From assembly GCA_903955385.1 (NCBI GenBank), contig CAJBNH010000156.1, positions 1 through 53,328 of the forward strand: a stretch of 53,328 bases of DNA, given 5' to 3'. A program made the translations under genes and the position numbers. The DNA is from an uncultured Myxococcales bacterium (GTDB lineage: Bacteria > Myxococcota_A > UBA9042). This document shows positions 19,442 through 34,362 of the stretch, one piece after another (the stretch's first letter is position 1; the number at the start of each line of letters is the position of its first letter). The notes under the pieces were generated by a model that saw nothing but the letters and a program-made list of their open reading frames with translations, did not search any database and was not told the origin of the DNA.

Positions 19442-20662
19442 ATGATCCGCATCGGCCTTGCCGCTGTGCTTGCGTGCGCGTCGCTCTTGGCGGCCTGCAC
19501 CGCGCAGGTCGGGCTGCCCGCCGACGACTCCAAGGTCGCCCGGTATCCCATCGCGCTTGCCGCCAGTCCTGCGGGCGACCACTTGTACGTGCTGGGGGCG
19601 AACTTCGACCGCTCCTTCCGCTCGGGTGTCTTGCGCGTCGTCACGACTCAGGACGACACCTACGTGCCGGGCGTCCAGCTCGAGGTCCCGGGTTTCGGCA
19701 GCAGTCTCGCGTTGCAGCTGACGGGTGACGTTACGCCCACGGTGCAGCGGATCTTCGTGACGGCCCGTGAGGACGACTCGCTGACCACGGTCGATGTGAC
19801 CGGCCCGACGCAGCTGGGCTGTGGCAAGCCGGATGAGAACGGCCGCTGTGACTCCGCGCACCGTCTGGCGAATGCCGACACGTACCCGCTTGGCAACGAC
19901 CCGCTGGACGCCCACTTGGCCGTCGGTCCAGACGGACGGCTGCTGATGCACGTCGTGGCGACCAGCGATGGCAAGGTGACGATCCTGGACCTCTCTGGCG
20001 CGGCGACAGGAACGACCGCCGGTGTGCCGCACGAGGTCGACTCGTTGAACTTGGGTGCCGGCCTGTCGGCGTCCGCGACTTCTCCTTGGACTGGGCGGAC
20101 CTACGTCTCGGACACCCGGGCTCCATCGCTGCACGTCTACCGCATGGAGGCCACCGGCGATGCCGCGTCGCCGTTGCGCGCCGTGCGTGAGCCGTCGATT
20201 GCGCTGCCGTCCGCAGGCGTCACCGATTTTGGCCGCGACGTGGTCCTGTCCAGCGACGGAGCCAAGGCCTATGTGGCTTTGCGCAGTCCGAATTCCGTCG
20301 TCGTCGTCGACATCGCGCCCACGCGCCAGGGTCCGGCGCGCAACGTCGTGGTCGACGTGCTGGGGGTCGGTGCGCAGCCTGCCCAGCTGGCCGTGGCCCC
20401 GGTCGGACCGGAGGGTCGCGACCTTGTGTTCGTCAGCTGCTACGGCGAGGACACGGTGTGGGTGCTCGACCCGGCGCTTCGTTCGACCGTCGCCGTGATT
20501 CCGTTCGATTACGCGCCGTACGCGCTCACGACGGTGAACGTGCCCGGCCACGGCTGGCAGCTGTATGCGGCGCTCTTCAACCACCACGACATCGCTGTCG
20601 TCCCGATCGGCCCGTCTTCGGTCGGCCGGTTCACGGCGATCCACAACGTGAAGGCTCCCTGA
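19442..20662 (+). CDS. Lipoprotein with beta-propeller (YncE-like) repeats
   Basis: 406 residues from ATG 19442. An in-frame TTG at 19412 behind GGGGGTGG is an alternative start. A lipoprotein signal ends at L-A-A-C (about residue 18). The mature part shows repeated blades of the V-x-D-x-x-P and D-G-R-L-L-x-H-V-V type with A-Y-V-A-L-R-x-P-N-S-V-V-V-V-D near 285, typical of YncE/NHL-like propellers at the bacterial surface. Function unknown; such proteins are usually scaffolds or ligand binders. The next gene starts one base inside its stop (TGATG), and both are propeller-like lipoproteins, so they probably form one unit and may be ancient duplicates. Confidence 0.85.
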   Translation: MIRIGLAAVLACASLLAACTAQVGLPADDSKVARYPIALAASPAGDHLYVLGANFDRSFRSGVLRVVTTQDDTYVPGVQLEVPGFGSSLALQLTGDVTPTVQRIFVTAREDDSLTTVDVTGPTQLGCGKPDENGRCDSAHRLANADTYPLGNDPLDAHLAVGPDGRLLMHVVATSDGKVTILDLSGAATGTTAGVPHEVDSLNLGAGLSASATSPWTGRTYVSDTRAPSLHVYRMEATGDAASPLRAVREPSIALPSAGVTDFGRDVVLSSDGAKAYVALRSPNSVVVVDIAPTRQGPARNVVVDVLGVGAQPAQLAVAPVGPEGRDLVFVSCYGEDTVWVLDPALRSTVAVIPFDYAPYALTTVNVPGHGWQLYAALFNHHDIAVVPIGPSSVGRFTAIHNVKAP

Positions 20663-23268
20663 TGGCGAACTTCCGCACCCGCAGGCCCCTTGGCGTCCGC
20701 CTCGGCACGGGTCTCGGCGTCGTCGCCGCGCTCGCGCTGTCCGCGTGCACCAACCCGGTCGCGTCCAGTCCCGACGGGGTGAAGAACCCCCGCAGCCTCG
20801 CGCTCGTGTGTCTCGGCACAGACGGCGTGCGGCTGGATCTGGCTGATTGCAAATACGATTCCGGCGTGCGCGCGCTGGTCGGCTCGGGGGCAGAGGGGGC
20901 TGTCGCCATCGCCCACCCGTCTGGCGAAAAGTGGCTCGACACCGACCCGTCAGTGCCGGGCTACACGCCGCTGACGCTGGACGGGCAACCGGGTGCGATG
21001 GCCTTCGATGCCGTCACCAGTCAGGTGTACGTCGCGCTGACCGACACGCGAGAGATTGCCCGCGTCGACGTCGCAGAGCTCGCTGCCGGGCGCGTGAAGG
21101 TGCTGGATCGCACACCGCTTTCCTTCGATCCGGCGGGCATGGTGCTGGTCCACTTGCCGCAGCCCCGTCTCGTCATCGCCGACCCCGCCGGCGGCCGCCT
21201 GTGGACGATTGCCCCCGCTTCTCTGGGAGGCGATGCCTCACCCACCTCCGTCGACATCGGCGGCAGCCCCGCGACGCTGGCCCTTTCAGAGGCCACCGGT
21301 CAGGTCTATGTCGGCCACCTGCGCGAGGGCCATGTGACGGTCTGGGACCCCGCGACCAGCTCGGTCGTGTCCCGCATCTCGTTCACCGCCGCTTGCCAGA
21401 ACGGTCTCGACGACGACGGCGATGGCCAGGTCGACCGCGCGGACTCGGGTTGCGACAGCCCACTTGACCGCACAGAGGGCAACCCTGAGCTCGGGGCCCT
21501 GTGCGGCAACAACCTGGACGACGACGGCGACGGCCAAACCGACGTGGCGGACTTGGGTTGCGCGCCGACTCCGACCACCGACACCTGCCGCAACGGCGTC
21601 GATGACGACAGCGACGGCCTGACGGACTATCCGGCAGACCCCGGCTGCAACGGTTTTGGCGACGACAGCGAGTGGAGCGACAACCCCAGCTGCCGCGACG
21701 GCTACGACAACGATGGCGACGGCCAGACCGACGCGACAGACCCGCAGTGCGTCGGCACCCCCAATGGCGTCGAGGCCAGCGCCCCGGGCGGCCTGCCGGT
21801 CGGCGCCAACGACCTGCCGGGATGCGCCAACGGGACCGACGACGACGGCGATGGAAAGACCGATCTTGCCGACTCCGGCTGTTACAACCGCGCATCGGCT
21901 GGAGAAATTGCGGCATCGACCGACCCGCTGGCGCTGGTGACGACGACGTTTGGGGGCAAGTACGCCGTCGTGGCCGACCGCGCGCACCGCACGCTGTTCG
22001 TCATCGACACGGCCACCCGTACGCTGTTGCAGCCGCAGGTCGGCCAGACGACGCCGTTCGCCCGCGCTTCCCGGTTCGACTTGCGCGAGGGGCTGGCTGG
22101 CCTGACCGTGTCGCAGCTGCCTACCGCGCTTGGGCCGGTACGGTTGGGGACGCGCGACCTGATCGCCGTGGGCTTGTCGCCGGCCGGCTTGGTGTTCCTG
22201 CAGATCGAGGGAGAGGACGGCACCCGCAGCATCGGCCTGATCACCTCGAGTTCCGTCGCCAAGACCACGGCATCGCGGCCGAACCTGACCGTCGACAACG
22301 TGACGTTGGACATCGGTGCCCAGGCCCCCGCCAAATACGCGTCCCTTGGGTCGCTGACTGAGCAGAACAGCACTGAGCGCCGCTACTACGGCCTGCAGTT
22401 CACCGAAGAACAGACCCACCACCGCACCGAGACGTGGCGCTTCACCCGCGAGGGCGTGCTGCCGGGCGGCGAGCGGAACACGGGACGCTTCGTCAAGCCG
22501 TCCGAACTCCATGATCCGTATGGCGACTTCTGCCGGATGGGCGTTGTCGCGGGCGACACGGTCATTCTGCCGCGGACGGGCGCCCCGGCGTGCGGCGGCC
22601 TTGGGGAAGGGCCCGTGCAGTACCGTGTCACTGCGGTCCGCCCCGGCTCTTTGGACCTCGACCCCGCCAGTGGTCGCCGCGATGTGCCGGTCACGGCTGC
22701 CAATCAGACCAGCTGGGACGCCACGCTCGCGACCGCCGTGCCGCTGCCGGACCTGGGCTGCCTGCCGGAAGGCGGCGTGCATTACATCGTGCGTTCGCAG
22801 GGTTGGCTGGTGTCGGGCAGTCGCTCGGGTCTGCTCAGCAGCCGCGACTCGGTCGATGGTGCCTGCGCGGTCATTCCCGCCGACGAGCTGCAGGGTTCGC
22901 GCTTGCTGGAGCCGAAGCTGAAGGCCGGCGCCCAGCTTGCGACTTGTCCGCCCCTGAAAGCCGGTGTGCTGGACCCGGCGCTCGACTCGGTCACCCTGCA
23001 GCACGCGGTGTTCTCAGTGCAGCTGGTGCCCGGGTGCGTCAAGCTCGACTCGACGCAGCCGCCAGCTCTGCTTGCCTCGATCCGCGACGCGGTGTGGGCA
23101 GTCTCGGTGTCGTCCGGCTTCGCCGCGCGCGTGTCCGACGTGGGACCGGTGCCCGTCGCGTTGCAGAGCGGCCCGAGTCTGTCCCGCGTGTACGTCGTCG
23201 ATCAGGGCACAGGCACGCTGAGCTCGGTGACGATCAGCACCGGCGAGGTCGTGACCACGCTGCGCTAG
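20662..23268 (+). CDS. Propeller-like lipoprotein with an inserted array of Asp-rich calcium-loop repeats
   Basis: 868 residues. ATG 20662 overlaps the previous stop (TGATG) and has AAGG seven nt upstream. The lipobox is L-S-A-C (about residue 28). Residues about 45-240 and from about 410 on are propeller-like strands (Q-V-Y-V-A-L-T-D, Q-V-Y-V-G-H-L). Between them, residues 245-407 are five cysteine-bracketed modules of pattern C-x-N-G-x-D-D-x-G-D-G-x-x-D-x-x-D-x-G-C. The D-x-D-G-D run resembles calcium-binding EF-hand loops, and the paired cysteines suggest disulfide-closed loops. The C-terminal 400 residues have further beta structure and several cysteines. Probably a calcium-stabilised surface protein; partner unknown. 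Its TAG stop overlaps the TAG of convergent xseA. Confidence 0.85.
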   Translation: MANFRTRRPLGVRLGTGLGVVAALALSACTNPVASSPDGVKNPRSLALVCLGTDGVRLDLADCKYDSGVRALVGSGAEGAVAIAHPSGEKWLDTDPSVPGYTPLTLDGQPGAMAFDAVTSQVYVALTDTREIARVDVAELAAGRVKVLDRTPLSFDPAGMVLVHLPQPRLVIADPAGGRLWTIAPASLGGDASPTSVDIGGSPATLALSEATGQVYVGHLREGHVTVWDPATSSVVSRISFTAACQNGLDDDGDGQVDRADSGCDSPLDRTEGNPELGALCGNNLDDDGDGQTDVADLGCAPTPTTDTCRNGVDDDSDGLTDYPADPGCNGFGDDSEWSDNPSCRDGYDNDGDGQTDATDPQCVGTPNGVEASAPGGLPVGANDLPGCANGTDDDGDGKTDLADSGCYNRASAGEIAASTDPLALVTTTFGGKYAVVADRAHRTLFVIDTATRTLLQPQVGQTTPFARASRFDLREGLAGLTVSQLPTALGPVRLGTRDLIAVGLSPAGLVFLQIEGEDGTRSIGLITSSSVAKTTASRPNLTVDNVTLDIGAQAPAKYASLGSLTEQNSTERRYYGLQFTEEQTHHRTETWRFTREGVLPGGERNTGRFVKPSELHDPYGDFCRMGVVAGDTVILPRTGAPACGGLGEGPVQYRVTAVRPGSLDLDPASGRRDVPVTAANQTSWDATLATAVPLPDLGCLPEGGVHYIVRSQGWLVSGSRSGLLSSRDSVDGACAVIPADELQGSRLLEPKLKAGAQLATCPPLKAGVLDPALDSVTLQHAVFSVQLVPGCVKLDSTQPPALLASIRDAVWAVSVSSGFAARVSDVGPVPVALQSGPSLSRVYVVDQGTGTLSSVTISTGEVVTTLR
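21394..21882 (+). repeat. Five Asp-rich Cys-bracketed repeats (coding)
   Basis: Five units of about 20 residues (starting near codons 245, 282, 310, 345 and 388), each C-x-[ND]-[GN]-x-D-[DN]-[DG]-x-D-G and ending in G-C or Q-C. Linkers of 10-35 residues are Pro/Gly/Asn-rich. They interrupt a beta-propeller in the same protein. Confidence 0.8.
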
Positions 23269-27491: not shown

Positions 27492-29966
27492 ATGGCCAAG
27501 ACCACGTCCTCGCCCGCCACGCCCGCCGCCCCCACGACGGAAGGTCTGCCCGGCAACTCAGGAATCCTCTATGGACTCCTCGCCGTGCTGCTCGTCGGTC
27601 TGGGCGTGTCGGTCTACCTCGTCTACCACAAGCTCAATCTGCTGTACGACCCCGCGTTCATTTCGGGTTGCAACTACGGTGGCGCGGTCAATTGTGACAA
27701 GGTCAACCTGTCGCCGTGGTCGCAGATCTTCGGCGTGCCGATCGCGCTGTTCGGCATCGCCACCTATGCCGCCATGGCCTACATGACCGTCGTCGCCGCG
27801 CGCGCGGTGACCGCGACCGATCAAGCCGTGCGCGCCACCGGCGTCGTCGCCTTGAATGCCGTGGCGGCGCTGGCCGTCGCCAGCAGCCTGTACTCGATCG
27901 CCTTGGCGCTGTACTCGTCCGTCGTGGTCGAGGCCTGGTGCCTGTACTGCATCTCGCTGTACGTCGTGAACTTTGCCTCCGCCGCGCTGGCCATCTCCGC
28001 CGGCCCCAAGACGGTCGGTGGCGCGATCCAAGGCTCGCTGCAGGCGGCTTCGGGCCTCAAGGAACCGATTGCCCTCGCGTTTGGCGTGTGGGTGATCGTC
28101 GCCGGTCTCGGCTGGTACGTGTATGACGTCAGGGGCGAGTCGATGCGCGCCAACCTGGACGCCAAGGGCTTGGCGGCGGCCGCGGCTGCCTTCGGAGAGA
28201 CCGCAGCGCCCGCCGGCGAGGCCGCTCCGGCCAACAACGCCCCCGTCGCGGGCGTCCCCGAAAACGCACCGCCCGTGCAGCCCGTCGGCTCCGCGCCGAT
28301 CGGCGTGCCCAGCGGCAAGAAGACCGAAGACGGTTGGACATTCTTCCTCACGCCCCTGCGCGACGACGAGTACTACTACGGCAACCCCAAGGCACAGGTC
28401 ACGGTCGTCAAGTACGCCGACTTCGAGTGCTCGTACTGCCGGTTCCTGACCATGACCATGGAGCCGCTCAAGGCCAAGTACAAGGACAAAGTCCGCTTCG
28501 TCATGAAGCAATTCCCCATGAATCCGTCGTGCAACCCGTACATGGCGGGCTACGACAAGCACCCCAACGCCTGCAACGCCGCGTTTGCCGCCGAGTGCGC
28601 CGGTCAGCAGGGCAAGTTCTGGGACATGCACGACAAGCTGTATGCCAACGCGCCCAAGCTCGACCCCGAGGCCAACCGCGCCATCGCGCAAGAACTGGGC
28701 TTGAATCTGGCCAAGTACGACGCCTGCGTGAAGGACCCGGCGACCCCGGCCAAGCTGCGCAAGGACATCGATATGGCCTACGCCGCGGGCATTTACGGCA
28801 CGCCGCGCACCTACATCAACGGCCGCCTGGTCACGGGCTCGGCCTCGACGGCGATTCTCGAGTACTACATCCAGAAGTCGCTCGAGGCCCCCGTTCCCGT
28901 CGCCCCCGGTCAGGTGCAGATGGCACCGCCGTCGGACGGTACCCAGATGGTTCAGGCCAAGACCGCAACCAAGACCTTCTTCATCGACCCGTACGAGTCC
29001 GCCCTGACCAAGGACGGCAAGGCCGTGTCGGTGCCTGGCGAATCACCCGCCGAGGCCAGCTGGACCGAGGCCAACGCCGCGTGCGGCAAGGCCGGCAAGC
29101 GCCTGTGCACGGAGGAAGAGTGGGTCTCGGCCTGCACCGGTACCCCCGCCATCGACGAGAACCAGAACGGCATGTGGGCCGAAGACAACGTCGAGGGGCG
29201 CATGTACCCGTACGGCGACTTCTACGAGGCGGGCACCTGCGTCGACATGGAAGACAAGTACAAGGGCAAGGCCCTGCCCGCCGGTCAAAAGGCGCAATGC
29301 CGCACGCCGTCAGGTCTTTTCGACATGGCGGGCAACATCGGCGAGTGGGTCGGTCCGCAGGAGAAGGCGGCGCTGCTCGGTGGCCACGCGTCCAGTGGCG
29401 AGCGGGCGGCGTGCAACCAGCGCTCGGCTTCGTTCGGCCTCGGCAACCGCAACCTGACCACCGGCTTCCGCTGCTGCGCCGACACCAACGTCACCCGCGG
29501 TCCCGTCGACAAGGCGGCCCTGGCGGCCACGGGGCAGGATCTGGTCGGCAAGCCGGTGCCCGTGTTCACCGCCAAGGACCAGAATGGCATCGTGATCGAC
29601 AGCGCCCAGTTCAAGGGCAAGGTCACGCTGATCAACTTCTTTGCCTCGTGGTGTGGTCCCTGCAAGAAGGAGTTCCCCGAGCTCGTCGCCTTGCAGAAGG
29701 CCCACAAGGCCAAGGGCTTCCAGGTGATCTCGATCGGTGTCGACCGCGAGTTCAGCCGCTCGCTCGAGTTCGCCAAGGGTTTCGACCCCACGTTTTCGAT
29801 CGTCGCGGACGAGGAATCGGAGCTGATGGGGCTGTTCGACGTCTACTCGATGCCCGCCACCTTCATCGTTGACCGTCAGGGCGTGATCCGCTTCAAGGAC
29901 ACGGGCTTCAAGCCTGAGGAGCAGCTCGCCAAGCTCCGCGACATCGTGAGCGGGCTGCTGCAGTGA
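27492..29966 (+). CDS. Four-module disulfide-redox fusion: VKOR - DsbA-like - SUMF1-like - TlpA-like
   Basis: 824 residues; ATG has AGGAG eight nt upstream. Module 1 (about 25-215) is a membrane VKOR domain. It has loop cysteines Cys60 and Cys68, Ser74, and the active pair Cys150-L-Y-Cys153, the same spacing as human VKORC1 (43, 51, 57, 132, 135). An Ala/Pro linker follows. Module 2 (about 290-468) is a DsbA/DsbG-type thioredoxin fold with Cys313-S-Y-Cys316 and cis-Pro438 (G-T-P). Module 3 (about 494-663) is a formylglycine-generating-enzyme (SUMF1) fold with K-R-L-C-T-E-E-E-W, D-M-A-G-N-I-G-E-W and G-F-R-C-C. It has only one Cys (641) where FGE has a catalytic pair, so it is probably not an FGE. 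Module 4 (about 676-824) is TlpA/redoxin-like with W-Cys721-G-P-Cys724. It would oxidise quinol-linked thiols and pass electrons between modules in the periplasm. The downstream gene overlaps by GTGA. Confidence 0.93.
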   Translation: MAKTTSSPATPAAPTTEGLPGNSGILYGLLAVLLVGLGVSVYLVYHKLNLLYDPAFISGCNYGGAVNCDKVNLSPWSQIFGVPIALFGIATYAAMAYMTVVAARAVTATDQAVRATGVVALNAVAALAVASSLYSIALALYSSVVVEAWCLYCISLYVVNFASAALAISAGPKTVGGAIQGSLQAASGLKEPIALAFGVWVIVAGLGWYVYDVRGESMRANLDAKGLAAAAAAFGETAAPAGEAAPANNAPVAGVPENAPPVQPVGSAPIGVPSGKKTEDGWTFFLTPLRDDEYYYGNPKAQVTVVKYADFECSYCRFLTMTMEPLKAKYKDKVRFVMKQFPMNPSCNPYMAGYDKHPNACNAAFAAECAGQQGKFWDMHDKLYANAPKLDPEANRAIAQELGLNLAKYDACVKDPATPAKLRKDIDMAYAAGIYGTPRTYINGRLVTGSASTAILEYYIQKSLEAPVPVAPGQVQMAPPSDGTQMVQAKTATKTFFIDPYESALTKDGKAVSVPGESPAEASWTEANAACGKAGKRLCTEEEWVSACTGTPAIDENQNGMWAEDNVEGRMYPYGDFYEAGTCVDMEDKYKGKALPAGQKAQCRTPSGLFDMAGNIGEWVGPQEKAALLGGHASSGERAACNQRSASFGLGNRNLTTGFRCCADTNVTRGPVDKAALAATGQDLVGKPVPVFTAKDQNGIVIDSAQFKGKVTLINFFASWCGPCKKEFPELVALQKAHKAKGFQVISIGVDREFSRSLEFAKGFDPTFSIVADEESELMGLFDVYSMPATFIVDRQGVIRFKDTGFKPEEQLAKLRDIVSGLLQ

Positions 29967-30751
29967 TTCGCGCGGCCACGCTCGTGGTCGCAACGACGGC
30001 GCTCTTGGCCGTCGGGGCGGGCTGTGGGCGTTGGTCCGGCGATCGTCCTCCCCCATGGGTAGAGATCCAGCCAGGCCTGTCGTATGCCTTGGCCGATGCC
30101 CCCGCTGGCAGCGGCATCCCCTTGCATCTCGTACGGTTTTCGCCCCAGCGCTTCACCGCCGTCGTCACTCCCGCAAGCAGTCTGGACCGCGCGGTTGCCG
30201 TGGCCGAGGACTTCCGCCGGTCGGTGGGTGGGGTTGTCGCGGTCAACGGCGGCTATTTCGACCCGCAGCTCAAGCCGCTGGGTCTGCTGGTCAGTCAGGG
30301 GCGCGAGCTCAGTCGGCTGCGGCGCGTGGACCACGGGGTGTTCTATCTGGCGTCCGGGGTGCCGGGGCTCGTGCACGCACGGGACTGGCACCCACCGGCT
30401 GGACTGGAGTTCGCGGTCGAGTGTGGCCCGCGGCTGGTGGTCGATGGCAAGCCCCTGACGTTCAAGCCAGGTTTTGCGCGACGGGTGGCGATCGGTCACG
30501 ACGCCGCGGGGCGGGTGCTGCTGGCGGTGACCGAAGCCGAGCTCTCGCTGGCCGAATTCGCCGAGCGTCTGGCGCAGTCTGAGTCGAGGGGTGGCCCGGG
30601 GATTGTGTCGGCGCTGAACCTGGACGGCGGCTCGTCGACCATGCTCGCGATCGCCGCCGGTGACCTGCGGGTGTCGCTCGCGTCGGCCGTGGCGGTGCCG
30701 GTGGGCCTGGTGGTGGTCCCTCGCAGTCCGGTCCGACCGGTTCTGCGCTAA
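29963..30751 (+). CDS. Phosphodiester glycosidase (NAGPA/DUF2233) family lipoprotein
   Basis: 262 residues. The GTG start overlaps the TGA of the redox fusion (GTGA), so the two are translationally coupled. A signal peptide ends with G-A-G-C, a non-standard lipobox. The NAGPA domain signatures are A-V-N-G-G-Y-F-D (about 94), P-L-G-L-L-V-S-x-G (about 109) and L-N-L-D-G-G-S-S-T-M-L (about 217). In the family these form the active site that cleaves GlcNAc-phosphodiesters or related sugar phosphodiesters. In bacteria such proteins usually act on cell-wall or exopolysaccharide components. The reason for coupling to a disulfide machine is unclear; only two cysteines besides the lipobox one are present, if that. 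Substrate unknown. Confidence 0.88.
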   Translation: MIRAATLVVATTALLAVGAGCGRWSGDRPPPWVEIQPGLSYALADAPAGSGIPLHLVRFSPQRFTAVVTPASSLDRAVAVAEDFRRSVGGVVAVNGGYFDPQLKPLGLLVSQGRELSRLRRVDHGVFYLASGVPGLVHARDWHPPAGLEFAVECGPRLVVDGKPLTFKPGFARRVAIGHDAAGRVLLAVTEAELSLAEFAERLAQSESRGGPGIVSALNLDGGSSTMLAIAAGDLRVSLASAVAVPVGLVVVPRSPVRPVLR

Positions 30752-32577: not shown

Positions 32578-32643
32578 GTGAGGCCGCGCCGAATGCGTGT
32601 TGCCCTCTCGGTTCCCGACCTCTTCAACTTGGGGAAGATCAGC

Positions 32644-34362
32644 ATGTGCAAGGACGCTAGCCGAAGCAACGGTGCCTGGGCCCGCAGGGTTTCGGGGGCA
32701 TTGCTGGGGGGGATCCTGCTGTTGACCGCCGGCGCGGGTTGCTCGCAGACAGCGGCCGACGTAGACGGCATCCGCCTGGTCGTTCGCACCCCCGATGGCG
32801 AAGAGAACCCGTTCGGCCTGGCCGAGGCGGCGTTCGTGGCCATCACCGCAGAGGGACCGGGCGTGGCCGAGCAGTACATCGTCAAGGTGTACGACCCCGG
32901 CATGATCATCGAGCTGCCCGGCATCCCGTTTGGTCAGCAGCGTCAGGTCCGGGTCGAGGTCTGGGGCGCGGATGAGTTCGGCAAGCCCAGCGAGCCCCTT
33001 GGCATGGGGCGCACGATGCCCGTCAACGTTGCCTCGGGCCAGTCGCCGGTGGTGCTGGATGCCTACGTGACCCGCGTCAATCGGTTTGCGCCGGTCTACG
33101 ACAACGGCGGCGGCCTCGCCACGTCCGACTCGCGCGTCGGCGCCAGCTCGGTGGTCATGCCCGACGGCAAGGTCCTGCAGTTCGGCGGTGGCACCCTCGC
33201 GGCGGGCAAGTCGCCCTACGACCCGGCGAACTACAAGACCATGATCAACAGCATCTTGCAGTACGACCCCGAGACCCGCATGACCTCCTATCTGGGCGAC
33301 GAGTACGAGGCTGCCGTCTTGGACCGGGGGCGCGTCTTCCACGCCACGGCGGTGGGCGCCAACGGTCTGGTCGCCATCGCCGGTGGCTATGTCAAGGAAG
33401 GCACCAAGAACGTCGTGACCAACAGCGTCGAGTTCTATGACCCGGTGCTCAAGGCTGTGCGTCGCAGCGAGGCGGGGACCCCAGACCTCGTCTTTGCGCG
33501 GGCCGGCGCCACGATCACCCAGATGTACGCGGGGCAGAACTACTTTCTGGTCGCCGGCGGCACCGGTCCCGTCAGTTGCGGCAACGACGGGCAGACGCCT
33601 TGCGCTGCGAACACCTGGGAGATCTGGCATCCCGACGTCGGCTTGGCGGCATACGGCCGGTTGAACGAGCCCCGCTGGAACCACGCCGCGGTGCGCGTTC
33701 CCGGTCAGGATGGCGGCTACCTGCTGCTGATCGGTGGAGAGAACGACAGTGGCGCGTTGGCCAACTTCGAGGTCGTGCAGTTCGCCGGAAGCTACGTGTC
33801 GCAGAAGAACCAGACCGAGTGTCCGGACCCCGTCGGAGCCACCTGCCCCAACAACTTCCTGTGGGAGCCGCAGACCAGGCCCATGCCCGTCGCGCGCACC
33901 TTGCCCGGCGCTGCGTTCGTTTCGTATCCGGGGCCTCGGCACTACGTCTACATCATCGGCGGCTTCACCGACAAGGAGCGCAGCTCGGCGGTGGCGCGCG
34001 TCGACGTGTTCGACATCGGCAACGGCGTTTACGTCGAGGAGGCCGATGGCTTCGCGATGTTGCAGCCCCGCGGCGCACCGATGGTCGCAGCGGTCACCAA
34101 GGGTCCTCGCGTCGGCCAGGTGCTGATCGCCGGTGGCAGCTCGAACGACACCACGCATCACGCCTCGGCAGAGTTTGTCTATTTTCCCGACCCGACCACC
34201 TCCGGCGCGCTGCCCCAGCTGGTGCCCGTCTACAATGATCTGGTGGGCGGCAAGCGGACGATGGGGACGGCTACGGCACTGCCGACCGGCCACGTGCTGC
34301 TGTCAGGGGGTACTTCAGGTTCGGCCGACCAGCTGGACATGATGGTGTGGAACCCCTTGTAG
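32644..34362 (+). CDS. Kelch-type beta-propeller lipoprotein
   Basis: 572 residues from ATG 32644, preceded by GGGGAAG seven nt upstream; an in-frame GTG at 32578 is less likely. A lipoprotein-like signal ends with G-A-G-C. Residues about 30-140 are a beta domain. From about 150 to the end kelch-like blades repeat: V-M-P-D-G-K-V-L-Q-F-G-G-G, F-H-A-T-A-V and L-V-A-I-A-G-G-Y, Y-F-L-V-A-G-G-T-G, L-L-L-I-G-G-E, Y-I-I-G-G-F-T-D, V-L-I-A-G-G-S-S-N and G-H-V-L-L-S-G-G. Six or seven blades are consistent with a full propeller. Surface-exposed binding is inferred. It sits 66 nt after the PEGA gene and 101 nt before the giant fibre gene, so co-transcription is likely. Confidence 0.88.
   Translation: MCKDASRSNGAWARRVSGALLGGILLLTAGAGCSQTAADVDGIRLVVRTPDGEENPFGLAEAAFVAITAEGPGVAEQYIVKVYDPGMIIELPGIPFGQQRQVRVEVWGADEFGKPSEPLGMGRTMPVNVASGQSPVVLDAYVTRVNRFAPVYDNGGGLATSDSRVGASSVVMPDGKVLQFGGGTLAAGKSPYDPANYKTMINSILQYDPETRMTSYLGDEYEAAVLDRGRVFHATAVGANGLVAIAGGYVKEGTKNVVTNSVEFYDPVLKAVRRSEAGTPDLVFARAGATITQMYAGQNYFLVAGGTGPVSCGNDGQTPCAANTWEIWHPDVGLAAYGRLNEPRWNHAAVRVPGQDGGYLLLIGGENDSGALANFEVVQFAGSYVSQKNQTECPDPVGATCPNNFLWEPQTRPMPVARTLPGAAFVSYPGPRHYVYIIGGFTDKERSSAVARVDVFDIGNGVYVEEADGFAMLQPRGAPMVAAVTKGPRVGQVLIAGGSSNDTTHHASAEFVYFPDPTTSGALPQLVPVYNDLVGGKRTMGTATALPTGHVLLSGGTSGSADQLDMMVWNPL

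Follow-up and report, generated by a model that had tools for sequence, protein, structure and literature searches.

A conserved Myxococcota protein joining VKOR, DsbA, SUMF1-fold, and TlpA-type modules on one polypeptide

Introduction

In the VKOR family, thiol oxidation drives quinone reduction, and E. coli keeps its disulfide-forming (DsbA/DsbB) and disulfide-correcting (DsbC/DsbD) pathways apart. What, then, may be the function of a single protein that joins a VKOR to two different thioredoxins? This question is raised by a gene on a contig of 53,328 nucleotides from an uncultured Myxococcales bacterium (CAJBNH010000156.1; the whole stretch is referred to as the window). An earlier note, made from the sequence alone, had proposed that VKOR, DsbA-like, SUMF1-like, and TlpA-like modules are combined here in an order not known to have been described, and that the chain could either pass electrons to quinone from two thiol donors or couple oxidation with isomerization. 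As a whole, this interpretation was partly supported by the analysis reported here.

Results

Architecture of the fusion protein

The gene consisted of one uninterrupted reading frame of 824 amino acids plus a stop codon (Table 1). From the N- to the C-terminus, the order of the modules was a five-helix VKOR, a DsbA (Thioredoxin_4), a SUMF1/FGE fold, and a ResA/TlpA-type thioredoxin. All four Pfam matches to the 824-residue protein were above the curated cut-offs and far beyond chance, and the PDB profile and fold matches, including a separate one for the SUMF1 module, bore out the presence of four modules on one polypeptide. An assembly join or frameshift between modules, which the earlier note had considered, was excluded because the identical order recurred at full length in over 20 genomes, each assembled separately. 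In the AlphaFold (AF2) model of the whole chain (30-sequence alignment), the domains were confident (mean pLDDT of 86.5), and the relative placement of the domains was not fixed because of a pTM of 0.64. The chain contained 20 cysteines, versus the eight redox ones counted earlier (C60/C68/C150/C153, C313/C316, and C721/C724), all of which were found at these positions.

Table 1. Positions in the window of the fusion gene, its modules, and conserved downstream genes.
Feature	Position	Strand	Evidence or remark
Four-module protein, complete gene	27492..29966	+	Single ORF; orthologues full-length in 22/22 same-family genomes
VKOR module, aa 24-211	27561..28124	+	PF07884; alignment to solved VKORs; AF2 helices
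Disordered Ala/Pro-rich linker, aa 229-265	28176..28286	+	AF2 pLDDT <50
DsbA module, aa 283-466	28338..28889	+	PF13462, PF01323; invariant columns
SUMF1/FGE-fold module, aa 486-666	28947..29489	+	PF03781; PDB profile; fold match; Cys conservation
TlpA/ResA-type thioredoxin module, aa 685-824	29544..29963	+	PF00578; ResA/CcmG matches; clade with separate TlpAs
NAGPA-family phosphodiester glycosidase	29963..30751	+	PF09992, E 3.4e-22; overlaps fusion by 4 nt
Kelch-repeat putative lipoprotein	32578..34362	+	Two mostly conserved CX7C cysteine pairs; candidate client
DUF11/SdrD_B-repeat protein, 5014 aa	34425..49469	+	Last in conserved gene order; candidate client

Oxidase modules: VKOR and DsbA

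Pfam PF07884 matched residues 29-167 with an E-value of 1.9e-23 (83.5 bits vs. a cut-off of 27.5), and AF2 predicted five VKOR helices: residues 24-52, 84-106, 111-146, 151-170, and 193-234. The cysteines characteristic of the family were all present: the loop pair C60/C68 and the CXXC pair C150/C153 in the last core helix. The loop spacing of 8 and the serine at +6, both pointed out in the earlier note, fitted the alignment with solved VKOR/VKORL chains, and this serine (Ser74, counted from the second loop cysteine) was conserved in at least 90% of the aligned relatives. Given the five helices, the C-terminal modules would be periplasmic, provided that the protein shares the topology of the Synechococcus VKOR.

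The following domain matched Thioredoxin_4 (PF13462; E 1.4e-23, residues 293-461) and DSBA (PF01323; E 1.3e-19), with an active site of C313-S-Y-C316 and a cis-proline position at Thr437-cisPro438. A CXXC- and cis-Pro-containing Thioredoxin_4 domain C-terminal to VKOR is the arrangement of a VKOR-DsbA fusion. This module carried additional invariant cysteines: C347, C361, C369, and C412.

SUMF1-fold module

The FGE-sulfatase profile (PF03781) matched residues 516-621 (E 1.2e-11) over profile positions 89-190 only, and the N-terminal part of this Pfam domain was absent from the module. SUMF2, EgtB, and FGE were matched in a PDB profile search. Since the fold search with the full chain was dominated by thioredoxin matches, the module was modelled alone (residues 483-668, 30 sequences; pTM of 0.83); the top PDB fold matches were OvsA and human FGE (E 3e-6 to 9e-6, TM ~0.55), and bacterial FGE and SUMF2 were also matched, which confirmed a SUMF1/C-type-lectin-like fold.

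In the aligned relatives, this module ranked among the most conserved parts of the protein, with eight invariant cysteines: C531, C539, C548, C583, C603, C641, C661, and C662. FGE has structural disulfides C218-C365 and C235-C346 and catalytic cysteines C336 and C341, and needs three cysteines in the stretch corresponding to that from W619 to the terminal GFRCC motif of the fusion (PMC4505483). In a HMMER alignment with the C336S chain of human FGE, C531/C661 aligned to C218/C365 and C548/C641 to C235/C346, and the active-site pair C336/C341 aligned to glycines (G631 and G636), the stretch from the catalytic to the C-terminal positions being a weak part of this alignment. Independently of this weakness, only one cysteine (C641) was counted between W619 and C661 of GFRCC in the aligned relatives. 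Since the catalytic cysteines are missing and the equivalents of the structural disulfides are kept, the module is almost certainly not an FGE, and FGE activity was rejected as its function.

Four disulfides are likely from the sequence comparison: 531-661 and 548-641 by homology, 539-662 by co-occurrence, and 583-603 by elimination. C539 and C662 were present together or both absent among the SUMF domains compared: in those from elsewhere in the genome, RLP paired with RCA or RCV, and the single other RLC paired with RCC. Two mismatches of RLC and RCC (L026 and L031) were dismissed; they were the fusion itself, picked up by a loose pattern. A non-catalytic role in binding or spacing is slightly favored for the module. 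The earlier account of redox modules therefore stood for VKOR, DsbA, and TlpA, in which the motifs were intact, and did not extend to the SUMF1 module, which added no further redox active site.

TlpA/ResA-type module

AhpC-TSA (PF00578; E 4.1e-24) matched residues 685-801, and the AhpC-TSA and Redoxin matches together spanned residues 685-812. The active site was W720-C721-G-P-C724, with a Met787-cisPro788 position, and E727, three residues past the second cysteine, occupied the position of Glu80 in ResA (Gln in one relative, L030); the thioredoxin fold, WCxxC, and this glutamate together are features of ResA/CcmG (TlpA-like) reductases, and the correspondence to Glu80 is not unique to isomerases. 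WCGPC is also the motif of general thioredoxins, and the redox direction of a thioredoxin-fold protein is not reliably readable from its sequence. By sequence and fold, the module matched 3gl3, ResA, CcmG, and DsbE (TM ~0.7-0.9), and it scored under the NCBIfam cut-offs for ResA (NF002854: 86.3 vs. 170 bits) and DsbE (TIGR00385: 72.4 vs. 123 bits). No Pfam match to the N-terminal dimerization domain of DsbC was obtained at E 0.1 in the 824-residue protein. As the earlier note had stated, both thioredoxin-fold modules have an intact CXXC, and both motifs were retained in every relative covering these positions. ResA, CcmG, and StoA are proteins of reductant provision (PMC3961690).

Distribution and conservation

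The protein was carried by all 22 sampled genomes of the family of the source genome, by eight genomes from other families of the same class, and by several in other classes; 49 of 284 Myxococcota genomes scored E<=1e-60 in a protein search. The four-part order is thus a property of a conserved Myxococcota family and not unique to the window. When 84,980 species were scanned with peptide patterns, with limited sensitivity outside Myxococcota, full-length relatives turned up in Myxococcales and deltaproteobacterial MAGs or in MAG records with vague names. The VKOR, DsbA, SUMF, and redoxin domains were present in all relatives not cut by a contig edge. Among 33 aligned relatives, only 30-63% identical overall, 19 of the 20 cysteines were identical wherever the position was covered; C60 was replaced by Trp in one relative (L027). 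VKOR-DsbA alone was common in other Myxococcota genomes.

Several variants were observed. A five-module protein, VKOR-DsbA-DsbA-SUMF-TlpA, was found in the same class (L033, 217-3096), and some genomes of the family of the source genome (G005, G007, G011, G012, and G015) encoded further paralogues of the four-module protein (L128-L131 and L153-L155), bringing the total to as many as three. A MAG titled Klebsiella pneumoniae (L047, CAMDBH010000007.1) contained the fusion at 62% identity together with the whole family gene order, and this species label is evidently wrong.

Split form and phylogeny

In ten genomes (L157-L161, L195, and L200-L203), a three-module VKOR-DsbA-SUMF protein ended after SUMF, and a separate, apparently exported TlpA was encoded directly upstream on the same strand at all ten loci; the two genes overlapped by 4 nt at two of the three loci with estimated start codons. 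Selenocysteine was considered for the in-frame TGA in several of these matches (f23, f20, and f33) and rejected: the codons were ordinary stops after SUMF, with the TlpA gene upstream.

In a TlpA tree, built from few columns by a quick method, the 53 fused and 10 separate modules grouped in a single clade (SH-aLRT 99) that excluded 55 other TlpA-like proteins. In the VKOR+DsbA tree, the SUMF-bearing proteins grouped together, apart from plain VKOR-DsbA (support of 90), and the ten split proteins formed one clade (98) nested among the fused ones; the three-module label of L113 and L031 in this tree reflects only a locus or contig end. The simplest history is that SUMF and TlpA were gained once and that a single fission came later, two separate fusions being a possible alternative. 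Adjacency in the split form and common descent argue that the TlpA module is a working partner and not a passenger. Under either history, TlpA and VKOR-DsbA-SUMF have remained associated, and this is the strongest indication of joint action; these comparisons suggest that the TlpA arm very probably belongs to the same pathway as VKOR-DsbA.

Redox genes and gene neighborhood

In the 95.6%-complete genome, the fusion was the only VKOR match and no DsbB was found; the same searches were positive in control genomes. Two to three DsbD_TM proteins were encoded, two of them with a C-terminal thioredoxin-like part, together with several other TlpA-like proteins, four sulfatases, and eleven other FGE-family domains, which scored far higher than the fusion (E down to 6e-57 vs. 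1e-11). The genome also encoded proteins in which two or three DsbA-type domains stand in tandem. Those with three Thioredoxin_4-like domains (L002, L003, and L004, on contigs C8, C24, and C194), mostly with CPFC or CPYC, have an unusual make-up and may be partners of the only VKOR.

The order fusion-NAGPA-PEGA-Kelch-giant DUF11 protein was kept on the same strand at ~19 loci of the family, as far as the contigs reached. The product of the NAGPA-family gene, the first of the four conserved downstream genes, had two invariant cysteines (C21 and C154), and eight cysteines in the N-terminal region of the 5014-residue protein were nearly invariant. Upstream in the window, a 936-residue protein (20458-23268, + strand) contained CxNGxDDDxDGxxDxxDxGC repeats, with almost all of their cysteines conserved; it had no Pfam match at E 0.001 and is probably a calcium-binding, disulfide-rich protein. 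The neighboring proteins with conserved cysteines, several of them probably exported, and this repeat protein are possible clients. A universal gene cluster was rejected: loci outside the family, fused or split, shared no neighbors, and the NAGPA-PEGA-Kelch-giant order followed the fusion only within it. Because the context differs outside the family, the cluster cannot define the function, and the reading of these proteins as clients is suggestive only.

Discussion

The best explanation, with a probability of roughly one half, is a VKOR-DsbA oxidase with a built-in TlpA reductase/isomerase arm, in which the SUMF1 module serves for binding or spacing. The protein would be an inner-membrane disulfide-bond catalyst carrying its working arms on a single chain. 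By analogy with the known families, the DsbA module would take electrons from the cysteines of exported proteins and pass them through C60/C68 and C150/C153 of the VKOR to quinone. The TlpA/ResA-type module may act in the opposite sense on the same clients, reducing or reshuffling wrong disulfides, and may be recharged by a DsbD/CcdA-type protein, at least two of which are encoded in the genome. The disulfide-braced SUMF1 module may hold the client or separate the oxidizing from the reducing thioredoxin. Of these parts, a quinone-linked oxidase is highly probable, and assignment of the TlpA arm as a reductase/isomerase is about evenly balanced. A clostridial VKOR-DsbA complements the loss of both dsbA and dsbB in E. 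coli (PMC12453122), and in H. pylori the CcmG-type protein HP0377, which has reductase as well as isomerase activity, works together with the oxidase HP0231 (PMC4491210); together with ResA, CcmG, and StoA, we consider these precedents to favor an oxidase with a reductase/isomerase arm. On the other hand, if nothing separates them, a strong oxidase and a reductase within the same polypeptide might short-circuit one another, which counts against this explanation. A more tentative extension is a self-contained disulfide proofreading machine, in which VKOR-DsbA makes disulfides by way of quinone, the SUMF1-derived module binds clients, and the ResA-type reductase/isomerase arm corrects wrong disulfides.

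It is unlikely that the VKOR instead oxidizes both the DsbA and TlpA modules, each with different clients and with SUMF1 as a spacer. The conservation of both CXXC motifs would be compatible with such a two-donor oxidase, and the two DsbA modules of L033 indicate that thioredoxin additions to this VKOR do occur; however, the TlpA module groups with the ResA/CcmG/DsbE reductases by sequence and fold, which favors oxidation plus isomerization over two donors to quinone, and in the split form TlpA lies outside the VKOR chain. A role in cytochrome c maturation, in which DsbA oxidizes and TlpA reduces the CXXCH of apocytochrome, a division of labor that may also hold for HP0231 and HP0377 of H. pylori, is improbable: the similarity to ResA/CcmG and the HP0377 precedent (PMC4491210) point toward it, but no cytochrome c maturation gene was recognized among the neighbors of the fusion within the window, no neighbor was shared outside the family, and the other TlpA-like proteins of the genome could serve instead. 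Slightly less probable still is a plain VKOR-DsbA oxidase, in which SUMF1 and TlpA are passengers for stability or anchoring without a redox step. In related genomes, the common protein is VKOR-DsbA without additions, which is sufficient elsewhere (PMC12453122), but the added modules are no less conserved than VKOR and have invariant cysteines as well as CXXC, and the TlpA gene adjoins the VKOR gene in 10 of 10 split cases. An active formylglycine-generating oxidase using the VKOR chain, which the fold, the Pfam family, and the four sulfatases might suggest, is scarcely credible given glycines at the catalytic positions, C641 as the sole cysteine between W619 and GFRCC, and eleven far higher-scoring FGE-family domains in the genome.

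The preferred oxidase with a reductase/isomerase arm is of interest because a quinone-linked oxidase covalently joined to a reductase-like thioredoxin, for which the natural split versions serve as controls, opens a direct approach to how both coexist and to whether fusion permits proofreading. A proofreading machine, if true, would place normally separate oxidizing and reducing pathways on one chain. The SUMF1 module suggests re-use of this fold in oxidative folding without formylglycine chemistry. VKOR-DsbA fusions are of a known kind, and neither the four-module variant nor its split counterpart seems to have been described: in line with the earlier note, no open-access paper describing the order was found, subscription papers and preprints being outside that search, nor did the open-access literature yield a paper connecting VKOR to myxobacteria or, in this sense, to formylglycine-generating proteins.

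Among known systems, the Synechococcus VKOR homologue (PDB 4nv2) and the VKOR-DsbA of Clostridium sp. share with the fusion the four redox cysteines and a periplasmic thioredoxin-fold domain past the fifth helix. The fusion differs from known VKOR-DsbA and VKOR-thioredoxin proteins in the addition, in a fixed order, of a SUMF1 fold and a ResA-type thioredoxin, and from the former also in the extra invariant cysteines of the DsbA part. The TlpA module resembles ResA, CcmG, DsbE, and StoA in fold, WCxxC, the Glu at +3 from the second cysteine, and export, but scores under the ResA and DsbE cut-offs and is joined to an oxidase or encoded next to one. The closest functional parallel to such a pairing is H. 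pylori, in which a CcmG-type protein with isomerase activity, HP0377, stands beside the periplasmic oxidase HP0231 (PMC4491210); these are separate proteins, with an oxidase of another family, no VKOR, and no SUMF1 module. The SUMF1 module shares with SUMF1/FGE and the paralogue SUMF2 (1y4j) the fold and the equivalents of two structural FGE disulfides, but differs in the absence of the catalytic cysteines and of the N-terminal part of the Pfam domain, and in two more probable disulfides.
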